A stretch of DNA of 51,423 bases from Prevotella sp. (lineage in GTDB: Bacteria; Bacteroidota; Bacteroidia; Bacteroidales; Bacteroidaceae). The DNA is taken from positions 1 through 51,423 of the forward strand of contig JAFPZD010000128.1 in NCBI GenBank assembly GCA_017417465.1, written 5' to 3'. This document shows positions 3,593 through 51,423 of this stretch, piece by piece. A program made the position numbers and the translations under genes. Positions within the stretch are counted from its first letter, which is position 1. Every line of letters starts with the position of its first letter. The notes under the pieces were generated by a model, which saw only the letters and a program-made list of their open reading frames with translations, was not told where the DNA came from and did no database searches.

Positions 3593-6500
3593 ATGAACAG
3601 AACAACTACTTTCAAGGTCCGCGCAGCACTGATGCTGCTTGTGTCCATGCTCACCACTGCGACGTCAGCTGGTGCAGCCGACGTGATTGACCTCACGTTC
3701 GCCGGCCGTGGCGATGCCACCACGGTGGAGAGCGTAACCGTAACTAACCTGACACATCCCGACATTGCGCCCGTGACGCTGAGCGGCTCGGCCACTCTGC
3801 GCCTCATCGACATGGCCGCTGCCATGCGCAAGGGTGACGTCAACGTCGACAGCCAGGTGGGCATCGGCGACATTGTGGCCATCACCAACGTCATGGCCGG
3901 CACCGACACCGACACTGGTCTGAAGACCCGCTCCGACGTTAACGGCGACGGCACGGTGGGCATCGGCGACATTGTCGCCATCACCAACCTCATGGCCGGC
4001 AACTTCGGCTTCAACAACGCCGGCGGCAACGCCGTGACGATGCAGTTCAACGCTGGCGACATCCTCCGCTTCGAGGGCACCAGCGGCCGGATGCGCACCA
4101 TCATGCACCTCAGCCCCGAGTCGTCACACCCCGTGACTTTAGACTTCTTCCGCTGCCAGGATGCATCTGGCTACAACTATCCGATTGTCCGCATCGGCGA
4201 CATGCTGTGGATGATGGAGGACCTGCGCCCACAGACGATGCCCAACCTCACCACAACCGAAAAAGTTAACTTGTGGAAGAAAGTTGGGGCGACCGACTCT
4301 GCTGTGTTCGTCAGCAACGAAAGGGGTTACTACAATGTACCGGGTGCCCGCAAGGCGATGCCTGCAGGGTGGGAGATGCCCAGCATCGACGAGATGTATG
4401 CCCTTGTGAAAGAGATGGAAGTCGACACCCTGCTTTGGGGCGACTTCCTGAAAGACCGCACCGGCTACAAATGGGACAAGGCGCTGATAGAAGGCCCTGA
4501 CTCCGTCCACCTGCAGCTGCTGCCCAACGGCTACATCGACGCCACCGGCGAGCTGACAGACGAAGAGGTGATGGGTGCCTGGCTCACCCGCAACACTATG
4601 CGCCACGGCTGTCCCGTGACCTTCGAAATCAATGCGCTCAACTCGCAGCTCTATCCCATGGTCATCCATGAGAAAGGCTGCGGCTTTACCGTCCGCGGCT
4701 GCCGTCCGGCACCGTCGGTCTATACGGAGATGCTGGAGCAGCAGAAATTCTTGGAAACCGAGAATACGTCGGCAAGGCATAAGATTCCTATGCAGTTAGT
4801 GAACGACAACGGCCCCCTCGGAGCCTACTACACCTTCGGTGCTGACCGCAAGAGCATCTTTTTCGACTATAGCTTTACATTGAATACTAAGTATGATGGT
4901 TCAACCGCCTGTACGAAACGCTCAGGTATTCTTTATAGGAACACTGCAGGAACATGGACGGGCGAAAACAAGCAGTTTGTACCTCTGGATGTGAACGGAG
5001 CCGATTACCAGCACCATCTGCGCAAGGTGGCTCCTCAGGGCAATGCCGACGGTTACGAAAACGTGGTCTATGCCAGTTGGAGCCTGCCTTTCCAAGCATT
5101 ATATCCATATAGTGCAACACCCACTGTGGCAGGCGAAGGCGTAGTCCGCATCTCCATCTTTGGCGACTCCATCCGCAACCATGCCATGCTCAATGACTAT
5201 CGACTGACGCTGCTCGACTCCTCTGGCAATGAATACAAGTGGGAGATGCCATTTGTCGGTGTGTGGAGCCGTAGACGACCCGGTTATGAAGATAACAATT
5301 GCTATCTCAGTGACATCAGATATGAATACTATGCCCGTGCCTTCAACCTCAATTGCATTCAAGACCAGACGGGCGACGGCGTGGAGGAAATCGTGATGAA
5401 CGTGGGCGACAAGATTGCCGTGTTCGACGGTGCCAGCATGAAGTGCTTGCGTGAAAGGAGAATATCGAGTACGAGAACCTTTACTGGCTCAGCTCACATG
5501 CGTTTCGATGTGGCCGACGTCAATGGCGATGGCTATGAGGACATCGTTCTCTTGGTGGACGAGGAGTTAACTGGTGGACACCTTTATATCTATGATAAGG
5601 GGCATCTCGACGAAAAGCCAATCTTTACGAAGCCCATCTTCTACCCATTAACCTTCTGCGATGTCAAGGTAGGTAACATGAGCGGGTTCGAACTGCCCGA
5701 TATTGCCCTTTTGATGCGAGGCACTATTAGTGAGAGCGAAGAAGAACTGAAGAAACAGGGTACACTTATCGTTTTCCGTCTTGCATATAACAGCGATATG
5801 GAATTGGAAGAATCGCATCCGAATGTACAGACGGTTGATTGCTTCTACGCTGCCAGCCATCGCAAATGGGTTCTGGGCAATATGACTCTTTGTTTCGGCT
5901 ATTTCCGTGGCCGCGATGTTAAAGACTTGGATGGCAACACGGTAAGTTATCCACAAGACCTTGTCGTAGGCTGTAATTTGTATCGTTGGGACGAACAGGA
6001 GGCTAAGCCTGTTTGTCTGACAAGCATCTTACAATCAGACCGATACACTGTTCCTGCCGATGCCATCATGGCCGTACAAACTAAAAAAGGCGACAAGGAG
6101 AGTCTGGTCTATTTTGAGCACGATCACTTGTTTTGTTCTTCATCTTGGCCACGTAGTAACTCCAAACTGTGTGAGCGTTGGTTAGACACTGATGGTAAGA
6201 CAGTGAAGTCAAAGAGTGACTTTGGTTCAAGTATCTTCGGGTGGACTGATTCGCAGATGACTCGATTTCTTAATATGGAAACTAACCAAGAAACGAATGC
6301 CCATCCCGTGCTCTGCAAGTTCGCCGACCGTGAGCGTCCCATGAAGTTCAAGTTCAAGAGCCACGAGCTGAACTTCAGCGAGCCGCGCATCTACGCCGTC
6401 ATCGCCGCTCCACCTTACTACAAGGACCTCGGCCCTGGCGGTGCCACCACGTGGGGCAAGAGCTCTACCACCAGCAACAGCACAGCCACGTCTGATGAAT

Positions 6501-7306
6501 GGGGCGGCTCCGTTATTGCCGGCTACGAGCATTCCTACAGTGTGCCCTTCTTCAGCTCCGCTGAGGTCGGCGTGGAGTTTACTACCAAGGTGAGCGTGGC
6601 AGGCGGCATTGCCACCGAACATGAGGTGACTATGGGCAGCGGGCAGGAATACTCTGTCTCTGAGGAACATTCAGTCGTGATGCAGGCAACGCCCTTCGAC
6701 ACTTACCGCTACGAGATTATCGACAGCGCCGACCCCGACGAGGAAGGGATGGAGTTCGTGGTGTCTATGCCGCGTGAACGCACCTTCAAGCTCATGACCT
6801 TGCCGACTTATGTGAGGCTGATGGCCAGCCAGAAGAATGTGGCAAGGCCGCAGCGGTTCCTCACCTCTACGCCCGGCAACCCATGGAGCTATCCCATGAA
6901 CTACGACAACGAGATCAAGTTCGTGGACGATGCCCACCCCTTCCTGAAGGGTAAGGATATGAACCAAGGCTACACCAACGAGTCAGTGCCCGATGGCATC
7001 GGCAACAGCGCTACCCGCTCATTGAGCATGGCTACTAGCGACTCCAAGACCAAGTCGGTAAGCTTAGAGGTGGAGACGGAGCTCGTAGCAACGGTTGGCG
7101 GCGCGAAGGCCGGCGTGGGCTTCAACTACGGTCACACGAAAGAGAACACCCACACCATCGGCCAGGAGTTCTCCGTTGGAGGCACGGTGTCTGGTATACC
7201 GTATAACGACCCCGACCATCCGGAGTTCAAGTGGAACGTGGTGTGGTACTACGTGAAGGATGCCGGCGGCATCTATCCCGTGGTGAACTACATCGTGACA
7301 CGTTAA
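3593..7306 (+). CDS. Giant exported protein: dockerin-like, FISUMP, VCBS-like, pore-former-like tail
   Basis: This 1237-residue protein has a clear signal peptide (residues 1-28, cleavage near AGA/AD). Residues about 81-136 hold two dockerin type I/EF-hand-like repeats ('GDVNVDSQVGIGDIVAITN' and 'SDVNGDGTVGIGDIVAITN'). Residues about 188-385 are a FISUMP-type domain ending in 'FTVRGCRPAPS'. Around 588-660 are FG-GAP/VCBS-like motifs ('DQTGDGVEEIVMNVGD', 'DVNGDGYEDIVLL'). From about 964 to the end there are two Ser/Thr-rich amphipathic beta segments reminiscent of ETX/MTX2 or aerolysin-like modules. It is a tandem paralogue of the gene at 3-3299. Dockerin-like repeats in Bacteroidales are usually not cellulosomal. 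A calcium-stabilised surface or secreted protein is inferred; substrate and role are unknown. It has its own promoter and a strong downstream hairpin, so it is probably monocistronic. Confidence 0.9.
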   Translation: MNRTTTFKVRAALMLLVSMLTTATSAGAADVIDLTFAGRGDATTVESVTVTNLTHPDIAPVTLSGSATLRLIDMAAAMRKGDVNVDSQVGIGDIVAITNVMAGTDTDTGLKTRSDVNGDGTVGIGDIVAITNLMAGNFGFNNAGGNAVTMQFNAGDILRFEGTSGRMRTIMHLSPESSHPVTLDFFRCQDASGYNYPIVRIGDMLWMMEDLRPQTMPNLTTTEKVNLWKKVGATDSAVFVSNERGYYNVPGARKAMPAGWEMPSIDEMYALVKEMEVDTLLWGDFLKDRTGYKWDKALIEGPDSVHLQLLPNGYIDATGELTDEEVMGAWLTRNTMRHGCPVTFEINALNSQLYPMVIHEKGCGFTVRGCRPAPSVYTEMLEQQKFLETENTSARHKIPMQLVNDNGPLGAYYTFGADRKSIFFDYSFTLNTKYDGSTACTKRSGILYRNTAGTWTGENKQFVPLDVNGADYQHHLRKVAPQGNADGYENVVYASWSLPFQALYPYSATPTVAGEGVVRISIFGDSIRNHAMLNDYRLTLLDSSGNEYKWEMPFVGVWSRRRPGYEDNNCYLSDIRYEYYARAFNLNCIQDQTGDGVEEIVMNVGDKIAVFDGASMKCLRERRISSTRTFTGSAHMRFDVADVNGDGYEDIVLLVDEELTGGHLYIYDKGHLDEKPIFTKPIFYPLTFCDVKVGNMSGFELPDIALLMRGTISESEEELKKQGTLIVFRLAYNSDMELEESHPNVQTVDCFYAASHRKWVLGNMTLCFGYFRGRDVKDLDGNTVSYPQDLVVGCNLYRWDEQEAKPVCLTSILQSDRYTVPADAIMAVQTKKGDKESLVYFEHDHLFCSSSWPRSNSKLCERWLDTDGKTVKSKSDFGSSIFGWTDSQMTRFLNMETNQETNAHPVLCKFADRERPMKFKFKSHELNFSEPRIYAVIAAPPYYKDLGPGGATTWGKSSTTSNSTATSDEWGGSVIAGYEHSYSVPFFSSAEVGVEFTTKVSVAGGIATEHEVTMGSGQEYSVSEEHSVVMQATPFDTYRYEIIDSADPDEEGMEFVVSMPRERTFKLMTLPTYVRLMASQKNVARPQRFLTSTPGNPWSYPMNYDNEIKFVDDAHPFLKGKDMNQGYTNESVPDGIGNSATRSLSMATSDSKTKSVSLEVETELVATVGGAKAGVGFNYGHTKENTHTIGQEFSVGGTVSGIPYNDPDHPEFKWNVVWYYVKDAGGIYPVVNYIVTR

Positions 7307-7316
7307 CAGGCATTCC

Positions 7317-7354
7317 ACCCGTTCGGCGGGCATGCACTTTCCTGCCGAACGGGT
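7317..7354 (+). terminator. Strong hairpin after second giant gene
   Basis: A 14-bp stem with one G-T pair (arms 7317-7330 and 7341-7354, 10-nt loop) begins 10 bp after the stop codon. No T-run follows, so it may act as an mRNA 3'-end stabiliser as much as an intrinsic terminator. Confidence 0.55.
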
Positions 7355-7513
7355 CCTGATTTAGCCCAAACACATATAAAGCATTTCCTTTACACCAGTA
7401 GAATAAAAAGTTGCTATTTATAGAGGAAATCGGTTATTAGAAACATTATTCGTAAGACCTCCCCTAACAACTCCTGTAGGAGGGGGATAAGTTACCTATT
7501 TAATTACTTTTGT

Positions 7514-7600
7514 AAACCGAAAATATCCTACACTTCCTACACTTCCTGCACCCAAAATTAGGTGTAGGAAGTGTAGGAAGTGTAGGATGTTTTTCGGTTT
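7514..7600. repeat. Palindrome with 9-bp-repeat arms, copy A
   Basis: Two arms of about 40 bp (7514-7553 and 7560-7600) are near-perfect inverted copies. Each arm is built from three 9-bp direct repeats of the type TCCTACACT, flanked outside by AAACCGAAAA. The centre reads TGCACCCAAAATTAGGTG. The same architecture and a nearly identical centre recur at 7810-7889 with a different 9-mer. Confidence 0.85.
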
Positions 7601-7601
7601 G

Positions 7602-7765
7602 TCTCGGGTTTTGCGTTCTGAATCTCGAGAATTGCGAGCTGATTCTCGGGTTTTGCGAGTTTATTCTCGAGAATTTCGAGCTGATTCTCGAGAATTGCGA
7701 GCTGATTCTCGGGTTTTGCGAGTTTATTCTCGAGAATTGCGAGCTGATTCTCGAGAGTTACGAAT
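7602..7765. repeat. 21-bp tandem repeat array, about 8 units
   Basis: TCTCG starts occur at 7602, 7623, 7644, 7665, 7686, 7707, 7728 and 7749, an exact 21-bp period. Two unit types alternate: one with the palindrome TTCTCGAGAA followed by TTGCGAGCTGA, and one with TTCTCGGGTTTTGCGAGTTTA. Because 21 is a multiple of three, one frame stays open (7587-7808) and would encode Ser-Arg-x-Leu-Arg-x-x heptads. I see no evidence that it is a gene. The array lies between palindromes A and B. Confidence 0.85.
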
Positions 7766-7809
7766 GAAGAGAGGTGGGTATAGAAAAGACAAAAAGTATT
7801 TGAGTTAAC

Positions 7810-7889
7810 AAAAAAACATCCCGCTCATCCCGCTCATCTTGCACCCAAAAATAAGTGCGGGATGAGCGGGATGAGCGGGATGTTTTTTT
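7810..7889. repeat. Palindrome with 9-bp-repeat arms, copy B
   Basis: Arms 7810-7844 and 7855-7889 are inverted copies made of three 9-bp repeats of the type CCCGCTCAT, flanked outside by seven A or T. The centre, TGCACCCAAAAATAAGTGC, is almost the same as in copy A although the arm 9-mer differs. This shared design and centre argue for one repeat family. Confidence 0.85.
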
Positions 7890-7979
7890 ACTTAAATTGA
7901 GTACAAGTACACTTCGAAGTGTAGCATTCCGCCAGTAAGGGCAGGTCAAATCAAGTAAACGACAACCACGAATGGAGCT

Positions 7980-8172
7980 TTATACAACAGTCAATAATTC
8001 ACGACCTATTTTGTGGATACCATCCACGATGCGCTGCCGCTGTTGTCGACGTGGTCGTTTCAATCCGTTAGCATAGTGCGACAGTTGATGCTGGTTAATA
8101 CCTGAAGCACGACTAATAGCTGCCAACGAAATGAATGGCTCATAGGCCTGCCATACCCTGACCGTTCCGCTG
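7980..8172 (-). pseudogene. HicB-type antitoxin, C-terminal HTH remnant
   Basis: Read on the minus strand, an open frame from the GH3 stop to TAA at 7980-7982 encodes '...ISRASGINQHQLSHYANG' followed by 'RQRIVDGIHKIGRELLTVV'. This matches my memory of the C-terminal helix-turn-helix of Bacteroidota HicB antitoxins (GINQxQLxHYASG...K.I..A.H.LG.ELL.V). The N-terminal RNase-H-like part and any start codon are absent, and no HicA toxin gene is visible nearby. It appears to be the relic of a toxin-antitoxin locus truncated at the 3' end of bglX. Confidence 0.6.
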
Positions 8173-8190
8173 TTACTGGACGGTCAGGGT
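8155..8190 (-). terminator. Hairpin spanning the bglX stop codon
   Basis: ACCCTGACCGT (8155-8165) and ACGGTCAGGGT (8180-8190) are perfect 11-bp inverted repeats with the bglX stop codon (8173-8175) in the loop. On the minus strand it could terminate the bglX transcript, but no T-run follows. It also marks the junction with the HicB remnant, so it could be a recombination footprint. Confidence 0.45.
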
Positions 8191-10437
8191 TGTGGATTTC
8201 AGATTCTTCTGGCTGCTGTCAGGGCCAATCATAATGATGAAGTCGCCCGGTTCGAGCACATATTCGAGCTGCGGGTTATAGAACTTCAGCAGGTCGTCAG
8301 TGATTTGGAACGTCACCTTCCGGCTCTCGCCCTTCTTCAGGAAGATGCGCTGGAAGCCTTTCAGCTCCTTGACGGGACGAGAGATGCTTGCCACGGGGTC
8401 GTGGATGTAGAGCTGCACCACCTCGTAGGCGTCGCGTTCGCCCGTGTTTGTCACGGTGACGCTGGCGTTGCGCCCCTCGAGCGTGATGTCGCTATAATTA
8501 AAAGAGGTGTAGCTCAAACCGTAGCCAAAGGGATAGAGCGGATCGTTGCGCACGTCGAGGTAGTTGCTGACAAACTTGCCATAGGCAGTGGCACCCTCGG
8601 GTACGGGACGACCCGTGGGCAGATGGTTGTAGTAGAGCGGCTCCTGCCCCGTAGCACGCGGCATGGAGACGGTGAGCTTGCCACAGGGCACCTTGTCGCC
8701 GAAGAGGACGTCGCAGATGGCATCGCCAGTCTCGCTGCCACCGAACCATACCTGCAGGATGGCTGGGATATGCTCCTGCTCCCACGTCAGGACGGTGGGA
8801 CGTCCGGCGAAGTTAAGCAGCACGAGGGGCTTGCCCAGTGCGAGCAGGTCCTCGAGCAGTGCCTTCTGCACGTCGAATATCTCTAAGCTTGCGCGGCTGC
8901 TTGACTCACCGCTCATCTCAGCCTCCTCGCCCATTGCACAGACGATGACGTCGGCCTGACGGGCACATGCGAGTGCCTCCTGCCGCAGCTGGTCGCCATC
9001 GCGGAACGGCGTGGGGCTGTTGAAGCCGCCATCACGCTGCAGCTGCTCGTCGCTGGTGAAGTTACAGCCCTGGGCATAGCTGACGGTGGCCTTGCCAGCC
9101 ACTGCGCGCTCCATGGCTTCGCGGAGTGTCGAATACTTGTCGTGGACGGCTGTCGGCGCCCATGTGCCTGCCATGTTGACGCGGTTGTCGGCCAGCGGGC
9201 CTATGAGTGCGATACGCCCCTGCTTACTGATGGGCAGCAGTGGCCGGCCGTCGGCCTGTGGCTCGTTCTTCAGCAGCACGAAGGTCTCGGCAGCCATATC
9301 GCGTGCGGCACGCCGATGCTCAGGTGTCAGGATGTCGGTGCTGCGGCGCACAGGGTCGAGGTGGACGAAGGGGTTGTCGAAGAGTCCCAGCTTGTATTTG
9401 GCCTCAAGCACGCGCCGACAGGCACGGTCGATGTCGGCCAGTTGCACGCGCCCTTCGTTGAGCGACTGCTCCAAGGTGCCCACGAAGCCTTCGGCACACA
9501 TGTCCATATCGGTACCCGCACGAAGGGCCATCACCGACGACTGCTGCAGGTTGCCGAGTCCGTGCTTGGCCATTTCAGCGATCGAGCCGTAGTCGGTGAC
9601 GAGAAAGCCGTCCCATCCCCACTGCTTACGCAGCACGTCGTCTATCAGCCAGCGGTTGGCCGTGGCAGGAATGAAGTCGACGAGGTTGAACGAGCTCATC
9701 ACGGAGCCGGCACCAGCCTTCACGGCAGCCTCATAGGGCGGGAAGTAGTGGTTGTACATCCGCAGGTGGCTCATGTCGACCGTGTTGTAGTCGCGCCCAG
9801 CCTCGGAGGCGCCATAGAGTGCAAAGTGCTTCACGCAAGCCATCATCTTCGTGGGTCCGAAGTCGCCCTGATAGCCGCGCACCACAGCCTCGGCAATACG
9901 TGAGCCAAGGAACGGGTCCTCGCCACTGCCCTCGGCAATGCGCCCCCAGCGGGCATCGAGGGCAATATCGACCATCGGACTGTACGTCCAGTTAAGACCG
10001 TCGGCAGTAGCCTCCTTGGCGGCAATGCTTGCCCCCTTCTCAATGGCTTCGAGGTCCCAGCTGCAGGCCTGTGCCAGGGGAATAGGAAAGATGGTCTCGT
10101 AGCCGTGGATGACGTCCATGCCCATGAGCAGGGGTATGCCCAGTCGACTGCGATTGACGGCTGTCTCCTGCACAGTGCGGATGTCGGCATAGCCTTTCAT
10201 GTTGAGGATGGCGCCGAGACGGCCCTCCTCGATGAGCTTGAGCAATGGGCTGTCCTTGCTCTCGCCCGTTGTCACACTGCTACCCGGCAACAGGTTGAGT
10301 TGCCCTATCTTCTCCTGGACGGTCATCTTGCCCATCAGGTCGTCAATGAACTTGTCCATCTTCTGCTGCTGGCCCTGTGCCGACAGCAGAAGGGTTGTTG
10401 CCAGCATCATGGCTAGCATGGTGGTCTTTTTCTTCAT
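8173..10437 (-). CDS. bglX: GH3 beta-glucosidase, periplasmic
   Basis: This 754-residue protein is a glycoside hydrolase family 3 enzyme of the BglX type, predicted to release glucose or xylose from the non-reducing ends of beta-linked oligosaccharides in the periplasm. A signal peptide spans residues 1-20 (MKKKTTML... to SAQ). The N-terminal TIM barrel carries 'CVKHFALYG' near 201 and the nucleophile Asp282 in 'FLVTDYGS'. A middle alpha/beta sandwich includes 'NFAGRPTVLTW', and a C-terminal fibronectin III-like domain includes 'DVRNDPLYPFGYGLSYTSF'. Length fits BglX. It is the last gene of a minus-strand run, 72 bp after rseP, and the gap contains short GC-rich inverted repeats. Exact substrate cannot be read from the sequence. 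Confidence 0.95.
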   Translation of the reverse strand: MKKKTTMLAMMLATTLLLSAQGQQQKMDKFIDDLMGKMTVQEKIGQLNLLPGSSVTTGESKDSPLLKLIEEGRLGAILNMKGYADIRTVQETAVNRSRLGIPLLMGMDVIHGYETIFPIPLAQACSWDLEAIEKGASIAAKEATADGLNWTYSPMVDIALDARWGRIAEGSGEDPFLGSRIAEAVVRGYQGDFGPTKMMACVKHFALYGASEAGRDYNTVDMSHLRMYNHYFPPYEAAVKAGAGSVMSSFNLVDFIPATANRWLIDDVLRKQWGWDGFLVTDYGSIAEMAKHGLGNLQQSSVMALRAGTDMDMCAEGFVGTLEQSLNEGRVQLADIDRACRRVLEAKYKLGLFDNPFVHLDPVRRSTDILTPEHRRAARDMAAETFVLLKNEPQADGRPLLPISKQGRIALIGPLADNRVNMAGTWAPTAVHDKYSTLREAMERAVAGKATVSYAQGCNFTSDEQLQRDGGFNSPTPFRDGDQLRQEALACARQADVIVCAMGEEAEMSGESSSRASLEIFDVQKALLEDLLALGKPLVLLNFAGRPTVLTWEQEHIPAILQVWFGGSETGDAICDVLFGDKVPCGKLTVSMPRATGQEPLYYNHLPTGRPVPEGATAYGKFVSNYLDVRNDPLYPFGYGLSYTSFNYSDITLEGRNASVTVTNTGERDAYEVVQLYIHDPVASISRPVKELKGFQRIFLKKGESRKVTFQITDDLLKFYNPQLEYVLEPGDFIIMIGPDSSQKNLKSTTLTVQ

Positions 10438-11888: not shown

Positions 11889-12060
11889 AGTTTATTTACT
11901 ATTTGACAATTTACGATTTACGATTTATTTACGATTTGACGATTTATTTCTATTTACGATTTGACGATTTACTATTTACGATTTATTTACGATTTGACGA
12001 TTTATTTCTATTTACGATTTGACAATTTACGATTTACGATTTATTTACGATTGGACCATT
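11889..12060. repeat. AT-rich low-complexity array (ATTTACGATTTGACG type)
   Basis: The gap upstream of rseP is made of interspersed ATTTACGATTT, GATTTGACG and TTTATTTCTATTT words. A 26-base stretch at 11952-11977 is identical, in reverse complement, to 22329-22354 inside the GH127 coding sequence. No promoter could be singled out here. Confidence 0.8.
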
Positions 12061-12092
12061 TTACTATTTATTATCTACGGCAGAACTATCGT

Positions 12093-12183
12093 CCCTTAAC
12101 TCCCCTTTAACTCCACCTAACTCCCCTTAACTCCCCCACTCCTCTTAACTCCCTCTTAACTCCCTAACTCCTCTTAACTCCCC
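12093..12183. repeat. AACTCC-type low-complexity array at dxr 3' end
   Basis: About ten AACTCC(C/T) words separated by CCTTT, CTCTT and similar spacers occur here. The array runs into dxr: its final Gly-Ser-stop codons are written in the repeat. The same word family, in either orientation, appears at 20964-21000, 36479-36607 and 36729-36777. Confidence 0.75.
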
Positions 12184-30988: not shown

Positions 30989-31217
30989 GGCACTCTCCCG
31001 GTCGCTCCTCACGAACGACAATGCATAGTTACCACTTTTCAGCACCGAAAGCAAAATTTCCGCAGCGTAAACGCCAGTTAATCGATGTCACGCTAAATGA
31101 CACTTGGCACACTTAGAAGGTATCATTTACAATGTCACGCCCTCAATGCGCCGCACACCTCAATTCGAAATGCCGGACACATCAATTCGAAAGGTCGATA
31201 ACCAGAGTTTCAATAGC

Positions 31218-31249
31218 GACAGCGAGCAGCATTTCTGCTGCTCGCTGTC
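31218..31249 (-). terminator. Perfect hairpin downstream of tRNA-Met
   Basis: A perfect 14-bp stem (31218-31231 with 31236-31249) closes on a GAAA loop when read on the minus strand, 8 bp past the tRNA 3' end. No T-run follows. It may be a terminator or a stable processed RNA tail. Confidence 0.55.
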
Positions 31250-31257
31250 GATATCCG

Positions 31258-31887: not shown

Positions 31888-33792
31888 ATGTTGCGCATCA
31901 AGAAACTTGATATCTTCATCGCTCGCCAGTTTGGGCTGCTGTTCGTAGGAACATTCTTTATCTGCCTCTTTGTGCTGATGATGCAGTTCCTCTGGCGCTA
32001 TGTCGACGACCTGATCGGCAAAGGCCTCACCATCGACGTGCTGGGACAGTTCTTCTGGTACATGGGGCTGATGCTTATCCCCACGGCACTGCCGCTGGCC
32101 ATCCTGCTGTCGTCGCTGATCACCTTTGGTAACCTTGGCGAGTCGTCGGAGCTGACAGCCATCAAGTCGGCTGGCATCTCGCTGCTGCAGACCATGCGGT
32201 CGCTGATTCTGATCGTGCTGGTGATAGCAGGCGTGAGCTACTACTTCCAGGACGTGATAGGCCCCGAGGCTAACAAGTCGTTCGCACAGCTACTGCTATC
32301 GATGAAGCAGAAGAGCCCGGAGCTCGAAATACCCGAGGGCGTATTCTACGACGGCTTGCCCAACACGAACCTCTACGTGCAGCAGAAGGACATGGAGACG
32401 GGCAAGCTCTACCAAGTGATGATCTACCGGCAGACGGGCAGCTACGAGGACCAGGCCATCATCCTGGCCGACTCGGGCATGCTGCAGTCGACGGCCGAGA
32501 AGAAGCACCTGCTGCTGACGCTATGGAGCGGCGAGTGGTTCGAGAACATGCGCTCGCAGGACCTGGGCAACGCTGCCGAGGTGCCCTACCGCCGCGAGAC
32601 CTTCGCCCACAAGCAGATACTGCTCGACTTCGACGGTGACTTCAGCCTTGCCGACGCCTCGGGCATCGCGACCAACGCCAAGGCGAAGTCGACGAAGCAG
32701 ATACTCCACGACCTGGACTCCATCCGCCTGAGCAGCGACTCGCTGGGACGACAGTTCTACCGCGAGGCACAGGGCTACGTGTTCAACACAGGCCACCTGA
32801 CGAAGGCCGACTCGGCGAAGCTGGCGACGGTGAGCGCGGCCGACCTGCCCACGCTCGACAGCCTGCTGGCACAGCAGAGTCAGGACGGGCGTCGCGACGC
32901 CGTGAAGACGGCTGCACGACAGGCACAGAATGCCGTCGGCGACCTGGTGATGAAGAGCGACTATGCGAAGTACATGAGCCGCCAGGAGCGCATGCATGAG
33001 ATGGAGGCCATCGCGAAGTTCACGCTGGCCCTGCAGTGCATCATCTTCTTCTTCATCGGAGCGCCGCTGGGCGCCATCATCCGCAAGGGTGGCCTTGGCG
33101 TGCCCGTGATCATCTCGGTGCTGGTGTTCATCGTCTACTACATCTTTGATAACTCGGGCATGCGCATGGCACGCGACGACAACTGGACGGTGTGGTTCGG
33201 CAAGTGGATATCGACGATGGTGCTGGCACCGCTGGCCGTCTTCTTCACCTACAAGGCGAACAACGACAGCGCCGTGTTCAACATCGACGCCTACCGCCAG
33301 CTACTGATCCGCATGCTCGGCCTGCGCCAGAAGCGTAACATCGTCGGCAAGGAGGTCATCATCAACGACCCCGACTATGCCGCCGACGCCACACAGCTGG
33401 CCCACATCAACACACTCGTTAGCCAGTACATGAGCGAGCACCACCTGCTACGCTGGCCGAACCCCATCAAGGTGTTCTTCCGCCCGGGCGACGACCAGCA
33501 GGTGCAGGTCATCAGCGACCAGCTGGAAACGGTCATCGAAGACTTAGGAAACACGCGCGACCAGCGCATACTGCACTACCTGAACAGCTACCCCGTGCTG
33601 GCTACCCACGCCCACACGCGGCCCTTCCGCCGCCGCTGGCTCAACGCGCTGGTGGGCCTGCTGCTGCCCGTGGGCATCTTCTTCTACATCCGCATGCTGC
33701 GCTTCCGGCTGCGCCTCTATCGTGACCTACGCACCATCGAGAGCACCAGCAACAGGATCGTGGAGGTAATAAAAGTGAAGCGTGAAAAGTGA
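31888..33792 (+). CDS. LptG/LptF-family (YjgP/YjgQ) LPS export permease
   Basis: This 634-residue inner-membrane protein belongs to the YjgP/YjgQ family, which works with LptB as an ABC transporter extracting LPS for transport to the outer membrane. I chose the ATG at 31888 (MLRIKKLDIFIARQFGLLF); the frame extends to 31813 but that would overlap the upstream gene. The N-terminal transmembrane cluster (residues about 12-125) is followed by a periplasmic jellyroll-like domain containing 'EIPEGVFYDGLPNTNLYVQQ', then a C-terminal membrane cluster ('ALQCIIFFFIGAPLGAIIRK'), and an extra C-terminal extension with another membrane pair near residue 590. The extension makes it longer than the 360-residue E. 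coli forms, as is usual in Bacteroidota. Its last codons lie in a GTGAAAAGTGAA repeat. Confidence 0.93.
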   Translation: MLRIKKLDIFIARQFGLLFVGTFFICLFVLMMQFLWRYVDDLIGKGLTIDVLGQFFWYMGLMLIPTALPLAILLSSLITFGNLGESSELTAIKSAGISLLQTMRSLILIVLVIAGVSYYFQDVIGPEANKSFAQLLLSMKQKSPELEIPEGVFYDGLPNTNLYVQQKDMETGKLYQVMIYRQTGSYEDQAIILADSGMLQSTAEKKHLLLTLWSGEWFENMRSQDLGNAAEVPYRRETFAHKQILLDFDGDFSLADASGIATNAKAKSTKQILHDLDSIRLSSDSLGRQFYREAQGYVFNTGHLTKADSAKLATVSAADLPTLDSLLAQQSQDGRRDAVKTAARQAQNAVGDLVMKSDYAKYMSRQERMHEMEAIAKFTLALQCIIFFFIGAPLGAIIRKGGLGVPVIISVLVFIVYYIFDNSGMRMARDDNWTVWFGKWISTMVLAPLAVFFTYKANNDSAVFNIDAYRQLLIRMLGLRQKRNIVGKEVIINDPDYAADATQLAHINTLVSQYMSEHHLLRWPNPIKVFFRPGDDQQVQVISDQLETVIEDLGNTRDQRILHYLNSYPVLATHAHTRPFRRRWLNALVGLLLPVGIFFYIRMLRFRLRLYRDLRTIESTSNRIVEVIKVKREK

Positions 33793-33808
33793 AAAGTGAA
33801 GAATGAAG

Positions 33809-33948
33809 TAGATGAACACAATTATTTTATAAAAACAACGAGTTTAACGAATTAAACGAATTACGACGCGCAGCAATTCGTTTAATTCGTTAAATTCGTT
33901 GTTGGAAAAAGGATTATTTGTATAAACCATATATTTGAATAGTTACTT
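33809..33948. repeat. 140-bp dispersed repeat element, copy 1
   Basis: This block, from TAGATGAACACAATTATTTT to GTTACTTA just before ribBA, recurs in inverted orientation at 51285-51423. By eye about nine in ten bases agree. It contains palindrome C and a conserved GGATTATTTGTATAAAC tail. Confidence 0.9.
33834..33903. repeat. Palindrome with 9-bp-repeat arms, copy C
   Basis: The left arm consists of AACGAATTT/AACGAATTA-type 9-mers, the centre contains GACGCGCAG, and the right arm is the inverted copy of TTCGTTTAA 9-mers. The stem is nearly 30 bp with one mismatch. The design is the same as in palindromes A and B with another 9-mer. Confidence 0.85.
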
Positions 33949-35154
33949 ATGAACTACGAACTGTCAACCATAGACGCCGCCCTTGAGGACTTCCGTGACG
34001 GCAAATTCGTGATTGTCGTCGACGACGAGGATCGCGAGAACGAGGGCGACCTAATCTGTGCCGCCGAGAAGATCACACCCGAAATGGTGAACTTCATGCT
34101 GAAGAACGCCCGCGGCGTGCTTTGTGCGCCCATCACCATCAGTCGCAGTAAGGAGCTCGACCTGCCCCATCAGGTCAGCGAGAACACGTCGATGCTCGGC
34201 ACACCGTTCACCGTCACCGTCGACAAGCTGGAGGGATGCTCGACGGGCGTCTCAGCACACGACCGCGCCGCCACCATCCGCGCACTGGCCGACCCATCGT
34301 CGACACCGCAGACCTTCGGACGCCCCGGGCACATCAACCCGCTCTACGCTCAGGACAACGGCGTGCTGCGCCGATCGGGGCATACGGAGGCCGCCATCGA
34401 CCTGTGCCGCCTCTCGGGCCTCTACCCCGCCGGTGCACTGATAGAAATCATGAACGACGACGGCACGATGGCACGCCTACCGGAGCTGCTCCGCTTCGGC
34501 GAGAAGCATGGCTTGAAGATCATTACGATCAAGGACCTCATTGCCTACCGGCTACGACAGGAGTCGCTCATCGAGGTGGGCGTCGAGGCCGATATGCCCA
34601 CCGTCTACGGGCACTTCCGCATCATCCCCTTCCGCCAGAAGAGCAGCGGACAGGAGCACTTCGCACTAATCAAGGGGACATGGGCCGACGACGAGCCCAT
34701 CCTGGTGCGCGTACACTCGTCGTGCATGACGGGCGACATCCTCGGCTCCATGCGCTGCGACTGCGGCGAACAGCTGCACCGCTCGATGGAGAAGATCGAG
34801 CAGGAGGGTAAGGGCGTCATCATCTACATGCAGCAGGAGGGCCGCGGCATCGGCCTGATGAACAAGCTCGCCGCCTACAAGCTGCAGGAGGAGGGCTACG
34901 ACACCGTCGATGCCAACCTGTGCCTCGGGTTCAAGGCCGACGAGCGCGACTATGGCTGCGGCGCGCAGATGCTGCGCCACCTCGGTGTGCACAAGATGCG
35001 GCTGATGACAAACAATCCCGTGAAGCGCGTCGGCCTGGAGGCCTACGGTCTGGAAATCGTTGAGAACGTTCCCATCGAGGTGACGCCTAACAAGTACAAC
35101 CTGCGCTATCTGCGCACCAAGCAGCAGCGCATGGGGCACACGCTACACCTGTAG
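33949..35154 (+). CDS. ribBA: Bifunctional riboflavin synthesis enzyme RibBA
   Basis: This 401-residue cytoplasmic enzyme fuses 3,4-dihydroxy-2-butanone 4-phosphate synthase (residues about 1-205) and GTP cyclohydrolase II (about 206-400), supplying both substrates of lumazine synthase. Seen: '[20 protein letters not shown]' in the DHBP synthase active site and '[15 protein letters not shown]'; in the cyclohydrolase half '[20 protein letters not shown]' with the zinc cysteines and '[18 protein letters not shown]'. Length is normal. The upstream gap is occupied by the 140-bp dispersed element whose end abuts the start codon, so the native promoter is not visible or is supplied by the element. 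Confidence 0.97.
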
Positions 35155-35182
35155 CACCCCCGCCCTTCCCCCGCACACACAC

Positions 35183-36475
35183 TTACCATCGATCGCGCGT
35201 CTGGATGTCGTCGCTCCAGCGGTGGTCCTTGGGGAAGGGTTGTCCACTCCACGCTTTCACCTGCGTCCATGGCTCGGCGTCGCAGGTCCAGAACGGATGG
35301 TCGGCAGGCAGTCCGAGGGGCATCAGCGACAGCGAGGTCATGTAGAGCGACCCGTTGTTGGTGTACCAGTCGGCTGTTTCTGGCTGTGACCCGCAGAAGC
35401 CGATGGTCAGGAACCCACCCTCGTTATAGTTCTGCTGGTGGTCATACATGCGGTGCATCACCTGCGTCAGGGCAGCGCGCACCTGTCCGTTGCTGAGCTC
35501 TTTCGGCAGTTTCTGCTGCCAGGCCAGTAGGGCCAGGGGCTGCAGGGCGGCCAAACGGTAAGGTGTCGAGCGGCCGATGACTGGGAACGTGCCTTCCGGC
35601 GATATGAACCGCTCCAGGATGATGCTGAACTTCTGCGCCCGCTTCAGTGCACGGTCGTAATACTTCTGGTATTCCAGCCGCGTGTTGGCGCGGGCGTCGA
35701 TCATGTTCTGCAGGGTCTCCAGATACATGGCGTGGAACACGTAGCTGGAGTAGTAGTCGAAGGCAAAGACGGGGCCGTCGGCATACCAGCCGTCGCCGAC
35801 ATACCACTCCTCTACCTTGCGGATGGTCATCATCACGCGGAAGTCGTCGTACTCCTTCAGCCCTGCCGCCTTGGCAATGAAGCTCTCGATGGTGCTGGAG
35901 AACAGGAACCAGTTGGTGTAGGGAGGCTCGATGGCGCGCAGCTTCTTGAACTCAGCGATGTAGCGGTCCTTCGTCAGCTGGTCGAGGGGCACCCACAACT
36001 GGTCGTAGGCACGAATGAACGACTCGGCGATGTAGGCGGCATCGACCAGGTTCTGACCAGAGACACCCCAGCACAGATAGTCGGGCGACTGCGGGTCGAC
36101 GGAGTTTCGGTACGACTGCAGGGCCCACTCGCGCAGCTGCCGCCGCTGCTGTCCCTCGGCACTGTCGTCGTCGGGCAGCGTCAGCCAGGGTGCGATGCCA
36201 GCCATCAGGCGTCCGAAGGTCTCCATGTAGACCACCTTCCGATTACGGTTGTCGAACGACGGTGAGAACTCCGTCTGCATGTTCTTCTGCAGCTCACCCT
36301 TTGCCATGTTCTCAAGCACGGGCTGTGCCATTTTCCACGCCTGCTCGCACCAGTACTGGCGCTCGCTCAGCTCTTGTTTCTTCACTTTCTTAGCCTCAAC
36401 GGGCAACAGCAGCACCGTGAGTGCCACCATAAGAACCACTCGCCAGGAGGGTTCACGTCTTTGCTTACATGTCAT
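35183..36475 (-). CDS. Exported DUF2264 family protein
   Basis: This 430-residue protein has an N-terminal signal/anchor (residues about 10-28) and the DUF2264 pattern: 'TFGRLMAGIAPWLTLPDDDS', 'LVDAAYIAESFIRAYDQLWV', 'TNWFLFSSTIESFIAKAAGL', 'GDGWYADGPVFAFDYYSSYV', and 'GGFLTIGFCGSQPETADWYT'. DUF2264 proteins have an (alpha/alpha)6-type fold and occur in polysaccharide-degradation loci; a glycan-cleaving role is inferred and the reaction is not established for this one. It lies downstream of the GH10-CE1 gene across a 298-bp repeat-rich gap, and is convergent with ribBA (28 bp apart). Confidence 0.88.
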   Translation of the reverse strand: MTCKQRREPSWRVVLMVALTVLLLPVEAKKVKKQELSERQYWCEQAWKMAQPVLENMAKGELQKNMQTEFSPSFDNRNRKVVYMETFGRLMAGIAPWLTLPDDDSAEGQQRRQLREWALQSYRNSVDPQSPDYLCWGVSGQNLVDAAYIAESFIRAYDQLWVPLDQLTKDRYIAEFKKLRAIEPPYTNWFLFSSTIESFIAKAAGLKEYDDFRVMMTIRKVEEWYVGDGWYADGPVFAFDYYSSYVFHAMYLETLQNMIDARANTRLEYQKYYDRALKRAQKFSIILERFISPEGTFPVIGRSTPYRLAALQPLALLAWQQKLPKELSNGQVRAALTQVMHRMYDHQQNYNEGGFLTIGFCGSQPETADWYTNNGSLYMTSLSLMPLGLPADHPFWTCDAEPWTQVKAWSGQPFPKDHRWSDDIQTRDRW

Positions 36476-36478
36476 AAT

Positions 36479-36607
36479 TTAAGGAGTTAGAGGTAGTTAG
36501 AGGTAGTTAGAAGGAGTTAGAAGTCGATAGAAGGAGTTAAGAGGTAGTTAGAAGGAGTTAAGAGGTCGTTAGAAGGAGTTAGAAGTCGATAGAGGTAGTT
36601 CTTGCGT
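36479..36607. repeat. GGAGTTA/GGTAGTTA tandem array upstream of DUF2264 gene
   Basis: About twelve GAAGGAGTTA, GAGGTAGTTA and GAAGTCGATA words of 10-11 bp run from the DUF2264 start upstream. GGAGTTA is the complement of the AACTCC word seen at 12093-12183. A second short array of ACTCCT words lies at 36729-36777. The rest of the gap (36608-36728) shows no gene and no clear promoter. Confidence 0.75.
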
Positions 36608-43154: not shown

Positions 43155-43302
43155 CACGGGCATCGGTTTGGGCATCGGTTCGAGCATAGGTTTTACACGG
43201 GCATCGGTTCGACACGGTTTTACACGGACATCGGTTTGGGCATCGGTTTTACACGGTTTTACACGGGCATCGGTTTGGGCATCGGTTCGACACGGGCCCA
43301 TC
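43155..43302. repeat. CGGTTTTACACGG / GGGCATCGG array after S41 gene
   Basis: Words GGGCATCGGTTTG, CGGTTCGACACGG and CGGTTTTACACGG are mixed over about 150 bp, starting within 5 bp of the S41 stop codon. They share the TTTKACACGG core with the MBOAT and pseudogene arrays. Confidence 0.85.
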
Positions 43303-50370: not shown

Positions 50371-50641
50371 TGCCGCCAGTGTAGGGGCAGGCCCCGTGCC
50401 TGCCCGTTGGCCCGGCAGGGCTAGTGTGCCTTCTGCGGATGGCCAATGCCGCCTATATCGTTGCCTGTCAATGCCGCCAGTGTAGGGGCAGGCCCCGTGC
50501 CAGCCCGTTGGCCGCCAGTGTAGGGGCAGGCCTTGTGCCAGCCCGATGGCCCGTCAAGGGCCAGTGTATCATAACCATTCTCTCTAACACTGGCTCTATC
50601 GAGCCAACGGGCTGGCACGGTGCATGCCCCCACACTGGCGG
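50371..50641. repeat. REP-like GTGTAGGGGCAGGCC repeats, 3 direct + 1 inverted
   Basis: Copies of about 40 bp at 50371-50414, 50472-50512 and 50512-50552 read GCCAGTGTAGGGGCAGGCC then CCGTGCC(T/A)GCCCG. An inverted copy lies at 50603-50641. Each can fold GGGCAGGC with GCCTGCCC. Confidence 0.8.
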
Positions 50642-51284: not shown

Positions 51285-51423
51285 TAAGTAACTGTTCAAA
51301 TTTAGTTTATACAAATAATCCTTTTTTTAACAACGAATTAAACGAATTTGACGAATTGCTGCGCGTTGTAATTCGTTTAATTCGTTAAATTCGTTGTTTT
51401 TATAAAATAATTGTGTTCATCTA
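51285..51423. repeat. 140-bp dispersed repeat element, copy 2 (inverted), reaching window edge
   Basis: Reverse complement of the 33809-33948 element, from CTA at the window end to TAAGTAAC at 51285. Similarity reaches the last base, so the element may continue beyond the window. It contains palindrome D (51329-51398). Confidence 0.9.
51329..51398. repeat. Palindrome with 9-bp-repeat arms, copy D
   Basis: Arms of ACGAATTAA/ACGAATTTG 9-mers and their inverted copy flank GCTGCGCGTTG. It is the inverted equivalent of palindrome C with a few substitutions, most of them in one arm. Confidence 0.85.

Follow-up and report, generated by a model that had tools for sequence, protein, structure and literature searches.

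In the window, the whole 51,423-nucleotide stretch of Prevotella sp. DNA analysed here, two long palindromes (A and B) sit between the convergent ORFs 3593-7306 (+) and 8173-10437 (-), on either side of a 21-bp tandem array, and two palindrome-bearing elements of another kind (C and D) lie further along (Table 1). Palindrome A, the 21-bp array and palindrome B are one composite of about 385 bp.

Table 1. Features of the palindrome composite and of elements C and D (window positions).
Feature	Position	Strand	Description
Palindrome A	7513..7601	.	three 9-bp units per arm: ATCCTACAC TTCCTACAC TTCCTGCAC
Palindrome A outer stem			AT-rich, AACCGAAAA/TTTTTCGGTT; 64-nt core 7525-7588
21-bp tandem array	7611..7763	.	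lies between A and B; unit TTGCGAGCTGATTCTCGAGAA, 7.3 copies; alternative reading with a 63-bp unit
Conserved array-element tail	7764..7807	+	ends ..GGGTATAGAAAAGACAAAAAGTATTTGAGTTA; common to other composites of the window's genome
Palindrome B	7798..7897	.	three 9-bp units per arm: ATCCCGCTC ATCCCGCTC ATCTTGCAC
Palindrome B outer stem			A/T runs; 64-nt core 7818-7881
Element C	33806..33949	-	~145-bp TAAGTA..TACTTA element; palindrome 33834-33903, 9-bp AACGAATTA units; ends by eye
Element D	51285..51423	+	same element as C, cut by window/contig end; palindrome 51329-51398

Both A and B are near-perfect, a palindrome scan giving arms 7520-7555/7558-7593 for the former and 7810-7844/7855-7889 for the latter, with left and right arms differing at 1 of 28 positions in A and at 3 of 28 in B. 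The original prediction described them as long palindromes with three 9-bp units per arm, and this is borne out, 9 being the best period in all four arms. Their 64-nt cores, running from ATCC to GGAT, align without gaps: the units ATCCTACAC TTCCTACAC TTCCTGCAC of A match up with ATCCCGCTC ATCCCGCTC ATCTTGCAC of B, followed by the centre and the mirrored arm. It had been stated that the 9-mers of A and B differ completely, which is incorrect, as TTCCTACAC and ATCCCGCTC are identical in register at five of nine positions. Folded as RNA of the plus strand and compared with shuffles, A is paired over 7513-7601 (-67.2 kcal/mol, z -16) and B over 7798-7897 (-69.3 kcal/mol, z -15), and all four A/B strands fold 14-16 standard deviations under shuffles. 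The window has five palindromes with arms of at least 18, namely A to D and one at 31213-31254. No such palindrome turned up when it was shuffled 96 times with dinucleotides preserved, so that the proposed comparison with shuffled DNA came out well above chance. An Rfam search of the window at gathering score returned one tRNA and no match to A or B. Beside A, a dispersed repeat (7358-7468) has 95% identity to L136 166-271 of the window's genome and 92-94% identity to places in G637. Between B and the next gene, 7976-8150 gives BLAST matches of 71-84% in about 20 genomes of the genus, apparently independent of the gene after B.

Copies of the A/B type were sought with two covariance models. 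The first, from eight seed copies of the window's genome (98.8% of cells paired), had 13 of its 30 pairs changed on both sides, vs 0-1 when slid; it located 49 places in the window's genome, a few of the weakest being probably other hairpins, and 26 of the 49 are exactly 84 nt. At E<=0.01 it matched 21 of 150 genus genomes. The wider model came from 41 copies in eight genomes, each copy entered on both strands (82 rows, 95.7% paired). Two-sided changes affected 21 of its 30 pairs, vs 5-11 when slid, although the alignment had been adjusted to the structure and its pair count was reached by 6 in 500 shuffles. At E<=1e-6 this model matched at least 33 of the 398 genomes of the genus, the window's own among them, and, in an order sample of 295 genomes, the window's genome and 0 of the 294 others; the large searches used strict filters with 10-30 candidates scored per genome, and their counts are lower bounds. 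Further copies in the window's genome and its relatives, the absence of which would have spoken against the original prediction, are numerous. The window's genome is 5.5% contaminated and the genomes compared include MAGs. A strict sequence pattern gave 95 stretches when run on the named collection. Of the 80 that were listed, 76 are from MAGs of Prevotella or Prevotellaceae, with reindeer, goat abomasum and yak reticulum among the source labels of several, and the remaining four do not look like such palindromes by eye. The pattern matches in one Verrucomicrobia, one Bacteroidales and one Bacteroidia MAG, in Ferrimonas and in a viral contig are by eye not such palindromes. The A/B centre pattern alone matched 29 of 100 genomes (reversed control 3), none of the 28 loci fetched from other genomes being of this kind, and that search was superseded by the covariance models R1 and R2. 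Look-alike palindromes with arm periods of seemingly 12 and 11 bp (by eye) were seen at L109 1501-1624 (G006) and L108 1501-1588 (G111), respectively.

The 21-bp array, which the original prediction did not include, is the more general part of the design. Nine of the ten palindrome pairs of the window's genome that were printed bracket an array of the 21-bp type, and the tenth (L134) has only a 29-bp spacer. Across 20 genomes, 116 of 144 palindrome loci have an array of period 20-22 no farther than 300 bp away, and 28 do not. Counting periods of at least 12 and merging overlapping rows, the period is exactly 21 in 115 of 168 arrays within 300 bp of a palindrome vs 28 of 157 farther away (Fisher p 7e-21 with shared ancestry ignored, a value that, like the permutation values below, overstates independence, as the copies of one genome have a common origin and certain loci of different genomes are orthologs). 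Representative units nevertheless fall into about seven sequence groups, with the period still 21: those of the window's genome; G022/G492; G051/G589/G034; G600; G553/G137/G188/CAJOLE; G667/G617/G645/G159; and G678. Identity between groups is mostly inside the shuffled range (99% point 0.62), a value reached by G051-G678 and G600-G492; the G661 unit is of the G051 kind by eye, yet has 0.67 to G188 and 0.62 to G034. In Reindeer_1_mag_250 (CAJOLE), whose unit belongs to the G553 group, 29 of 32 loci picked by the palindrome pattern alone have the array. There the array and a TATATAGTTGTYA-like motif, selected after inspecting the CAJOLE flanks, are on the same side in 26 of 28 scored copies, in 23 of which the array is on that side only; the corresponding counts are 10 of 12 in G051, 1 of 13 in the window's genome and 0 of 7 in G600. 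The arms of an A/B module typically consist of three 9-bp units that fit xTCCxxCxx, although exceptions occur, and a 21-bp array is usually present within 300 bp; the family keeps both periods while its unit sequences change. The idea that the 21-bp units are palindromic dimer-binding sites was dropped, 1 of 14 consensus units being clearly above shuffles (CAJOLE, 0.002).

Arms within a copy were compared for copies at fixed offset only (26 of 49 in the window's genome, 14 in G022, 17 in G051, 7 in G600, 5 in G661 and 5 in G589). In the 26 copies of 84 nt of the window's genome, 96.8% of positions are the same in the left arm and the mirrored right arm, vs 75.5% across copies, a level that 0 of 5000 permutations reach; because copies within a genome share ancestry, this measures concordance and not the number of events. 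The covariation of arms proposed as a check is also present in G022 (0.885 in the same copy vs 0.752 across; 1 of 5000 permutations) and weak in G051 (0.796 vs 0.731; 79 of 5000), and concordance did not exceed permutation in G600, G661 and G589 (2018, 2678 and 879 of 5000), where the copies are alike. Tandem units agree too: in the window's genome unit 1 and unit 2 of one arm have an identity of 0.974, vs 0.586 to other copies, among unit types that include TTCCTACAC, ATCCCGCTC, ATCCCGCCT, ATCCGACGC and ATCCTGCGC, as well as TTCCCTCAC and ATCCTACCC. Such likeness among the units of an arm is not something that pairing alone demands. Intermediates occur as well: L126 and L093 have one GACGC unit in common, whereas their remaining five units are TGCGC for one of the two copies and CGCGC for the other. 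The earlier claim that arms change in concert is accordingly strong for the window's genome, but it describes a tendency, tempered by the three differences in B, by one chimera and by discordant relatives, such as L162 of G022 with ATCCTACCT units in the left arm and TTCCCGCAC units in the right. Some short variants in the window's genome have two units in one arm vs three in the other. The G051/G589 orthologs L166/L242, L170/L244 and L177/L246 (about 97% identical) retain the same left/right differences, so that discordance persists across two related species, indicating that arm re-matching is slow.

Elements C and D had been taken to follow the same plan as A and B. Their arms do consist of 9-bp units, but they are opposite-orientation copies of one different, apparently mobile element of about 145 bp with its own shared, non-palindromic flanks, laid out as TAAGTAACTATTCAAATTTAGTTTATACAAATAATCC, a palindrome of AACGAATTA units with centre GCTGCGCGTTGT, and TTTTTATAAAATAATTGTGTTCATCTACTTA; the C/D family is separate from A/B. 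Its unit pattern occurs at 28 places in the window's genome (83 matches grouped) and an end-pattern search gave 22 places, while BLAST matches to D were obtained in 99 of 398 genus genomes, the window's genome included, many to the arm repeats only. The ends TAAGTA..TACTTA suggest duplication of a TA target. Unit number is unequal between the arms of the C/D copies L043, L076 and L078. In L081, one of 17 scored copies of the window's genome, the asymmetric centre is flipped with respect to the flanks, and by eye it is so in L305 of another genome too. The arm-to-arm copying proposed earlier is plausible, and these two copies have the inverted spacer that it predicts, although the coupling of arms is incomplete and unit number changes in one arm; the orientation of the A/B centre was left unused as inversion evidence, single changes sufficing to explain it. 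L303 (G553) was likewise unused as an orthologous C insertion, since over 3141 bp it matches window 32309-35449 with 100% identity, either as shared strain DNA or through cross-contamination between MAGs. At seven places (window 51332-51423 and contigs C78, C124, C183, C220, C252 and C272 of the window's genome), C/D unit matches come to about 100 bp or less from a contig end, and the element seems to break the assembly.

The gene context of A/B copies could be classified for 96 of 126 copies from 19 genomes: 40 are between convergent, 47 between tandem and 9 between divergent genes, vs 23, 105 and 45 background gaps of the same stretches (convergent excess p 4e-7), with ORFs called by length, a crude method, and with 25 copies at stretch ends, 5 inside predicted ORFs and the reindeer MAG left out. 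The result stands, at 39 of 91 convergent (p 6e-7), once G589 and G645, two genomes with orthologs of loci in G051 and G667, are removed; in G022, with 2 of 14 convergent, there is no such excess. Of the gene ends that read toward a palindrome, 19 of 127 lie within 20 nt of it. The modules lie mostly at gene 3' ends, and this location and the convergent excess agree with a role for selection only, in which the palindromes are ordinary two-way terminators or RNA 3'-end structures, unpaired changes are purged, and neither special mutation nor mobility takes part; the A/T-run feet, the stable folds and a slight surplus of G-T over A-C on the gene-sense strand (35 vs 21, weak at p 0.08) point the same way. 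Location, folding and this wobble count, the last too weak as proof of an RNA, are what bears on the transcribed hairpin first proposed. A terminator consensus scan at 7000-8500 gave 0 sites vs 1.6 in shuffles. We nonetheless regard selection by itself as unlikely to be the whole account: it does not call for the likeness of units within an arm, it leaves the 21-bp array and the inverted C/D spacers unexplained, it is at odds with modules common to different species in unrelated flanks, and terminators need stems shorter than the approximately 28-43 bp present here.

Mobility is better judged from the flanks. G051 has modules of 171 and 240 bp in common with G589 and G661 (95% and 92% identity), the flanks showing no further match, and in L173/L243 and L164/L240 homology ends within about 130 bp of the palindrome. 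This argues against segmental spread, by which palindromes would travel with duplicated neighbour genes or through inter-repeat recombination and not as elements. The 434 flanking ORFs are mixed, most of them mutually unrelated (17 clusters of at least three proteins), and their products appear to include surface- and secretion-type proteins. The search for a shared gene within 2.5 kb of the palindromes yielded one cluster, the largest, of 24 mostly large proteins from nine genomes, and otherwise mixed genes. That cluster, together with window A and contig C46 both following related genes with the same C-terminus, is what segmental spread could explain, and we hold it to be quite improbable as the general route. 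Candidate ends of A/B (TTAAC..GTTAA), like the TA of C/D, are suggestive of target duplication, and none was proved for A/B. Nine orthologs (72-77% identical) of the gene after B have no adjoining A/B-type palindrome, and a base-exact empty site for A/B was not found, the ortholog spacers being too diverged. L172/L247, with a palindrome in one only, was rejected as an empty site for the same divergence of the spacer. In L168/L263, one and the same gene has a palindrome close to it in both G051 and G667, with units that differ; the two palindromes are either orthologous or independent.

A transposase tied to the A/B family was not found, and RAYT is not supported as its mobiliser in the window's genome, where the Y1 gene goes with a different, GTAG-footed palindrome. 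This REP, GTAGGGGCAGGCCnnGTGCCnGCCC, has six exact copies in 3.2 kb around a 224-aa Y1 transposase gene (L202 1408-2082), with which it likely forms a REP/RAYT pair; in the window itself, 50384-50641 holds three exact copies and one with two mismatches. The weak model matches on both sides of that RAYT (L202 1085-1193, 21.6 bits, E 0.00065; 2829-2883, 16 bits, E 0.047) are by eye without 9-bp unit arms. In G139, a 281-aa Y1 (RAYT-like) transposase gene (L192 991-2138) has its end some 210 bp away from a palindrome of the A/B type, and among 24 Y1 loci from 14 of 18 genomes (R1, E<=1) this is the only strong A/B-type neighbour; the weak matches of that scan are at L202 and L195, and by genome G159 has a weak one (15.8 bits) and G040 none. 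That the palindromes are RAYT (Y1 HuH transposase) substrates, as in REPIN/RAYT, is the least probable of the readings weighed here: dispersed intergenic palindromes, palindrome pairs, mosaic composition, the G139 gene and the L202 matches recall it, but a RAYT gene flanked by A/B palindromes, as REP/BIME membership implies, was not found among these loci, and the feet are of the type AAAAC/GTTTT on stems of 28-43 bp rather than the GTAG or CGTC foot on the 5-13 bp described for REPs (PMC3733652). The family does not belong to REP/RAYT, and we leave a small chance that RAYT is the mechanism in relatives. It is multi-copy, non-coding, intergenic and without internal transposase, as MITEs are.

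The A/B modules are best read as BIME/MITE-like, placed at gene 3' ends and possibly acting as two-way terminators. We think it fairly probable that the composite is a dispersed, non-coding and probably non-autonomous module of Prevotella-type bacteria, mobilised in trans, shaped by slippage and template switching and terminator-like, with C/D as a separate element of the same kind, seemingly duplicating its TA target. A trans-acting enzyme would spread the modules, replication slippage would change the number and identity of units within an arm, and hairpin-templated polymerase switching would occasionally re-match the arms, rewriting one from the other, and now and then invert the spacer. 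The long hairpin with its A/T-run feet may work as, or be tolerated as, a two-way terminator or RNA 3' end, a role that fits because the modules are in excess between convergent genes. Of the mechanisms first proposed, an element of fixed architecture with exchangeable units is supported by the family copies, the covariation and the shuffle control. If this account is right, the A/B modules are natural replicates, with many copies per genome whose arms and tandem units are rewritten together, and arm-to-arm copying and unit homogenisation could be measured in bacteria from strain sequences alone. More tentatively, the periods themselves could be what is inherited and not the letters: the 9-bp steps of the arms and the 21-bp steps of the array (two helical turns) would be kept, and units replaced outright by species, through a period-reading protein assembly or a copying process acting on spacing and pairing instead of a set motif. 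If the main account is right, a fixed 21-bp step beside a hairpin of fixed plan, with about seven largely unrelated units in one genus, would also point to a new reader of DNA spacing or a new selfish element.

As to known systems, eukaryotic Foldback elements have long inverted repeats made of short tandem repeats and are much larger; the A/B palindromes, bacterial and of 84-150 bp, resemble them in their tandem-repeat inverted arms. The nearest described system is the BrickBuilt MITE of Porphyromonas gingivalis, with 19 intergenic copies of a spacerless 23-nt tandem array within leader and tail segments (PMC4596501). Like the A/B composite it is an intergenic, multi-copy tandem array of Bacteroidales without internal transposase; it resembles the array part, without the long palindromes. 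Its period is 23 and not 21, its ends are small inverted repeats where A/B has long palindromes with 9-bp-repeat arms, and unrelated unit sequences under one period, as seen here, are not mentioned in the available part of its description (PMC4596501). REPs and BIMEs share dispersed extragenic palindromes and a mosaic arrangement with A/B, and REPs have been reported as targets of other insertions (PMC3733652, PMC6006769), to which the C/D elements adjoining A/B palindromes in L038, L068 and L077 are a parallel; the A/B palindromes differ from them in stem length, foot, 9-bp tandem-unit arms and the lack of a consistent RAYT. Template switching in inverted repeats is reported to homogenise arms and invert spacers (PMC8604942, PMC8794818), and both have apparent counterparts here, but it is a mutation process and not an element family, and leaves the fixed 9- and 21-bp periods unexplained. 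Palindromic candidate RNAs have been described from human microbiomes, several in Bacteroidetes, with 230 of 250 scored as possible intrinsic terminators (PMC8040213); they have palindromic structure in common with A/B, and tandem-repeat arms are not mentioned in the portion of that report at hand. The original prediction knew of no described family with this design, and none was found in the open-licence literature by titles and abstract openings; the unusual part of the A/B family is a fixed architecture with free sequence.

Further tandem arrays were noted in passing. In CAJOLE, the space that separates the palindrome pattern from the 21-bp array holds a 12-bp array (GAACCGACACCT and rotations), 83-105 bp away from the former, in L315, L322, L339, L385 and others. 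L135, L139, L140 and L142 have short-type palindromes (CATCCTGCATACCCTGC), then a 21-bp array and then a 22-bp array (TTACGACCTGTAAATGGCATAC) 98-119 bp away, in a flank common to L135, L139 and L142 and different in L140. Other arrays of the window, at 11891-12183, 36481-36600 and 43155-43295, have periods such as 7, 10, 18, 21, 29 and 58 bp.
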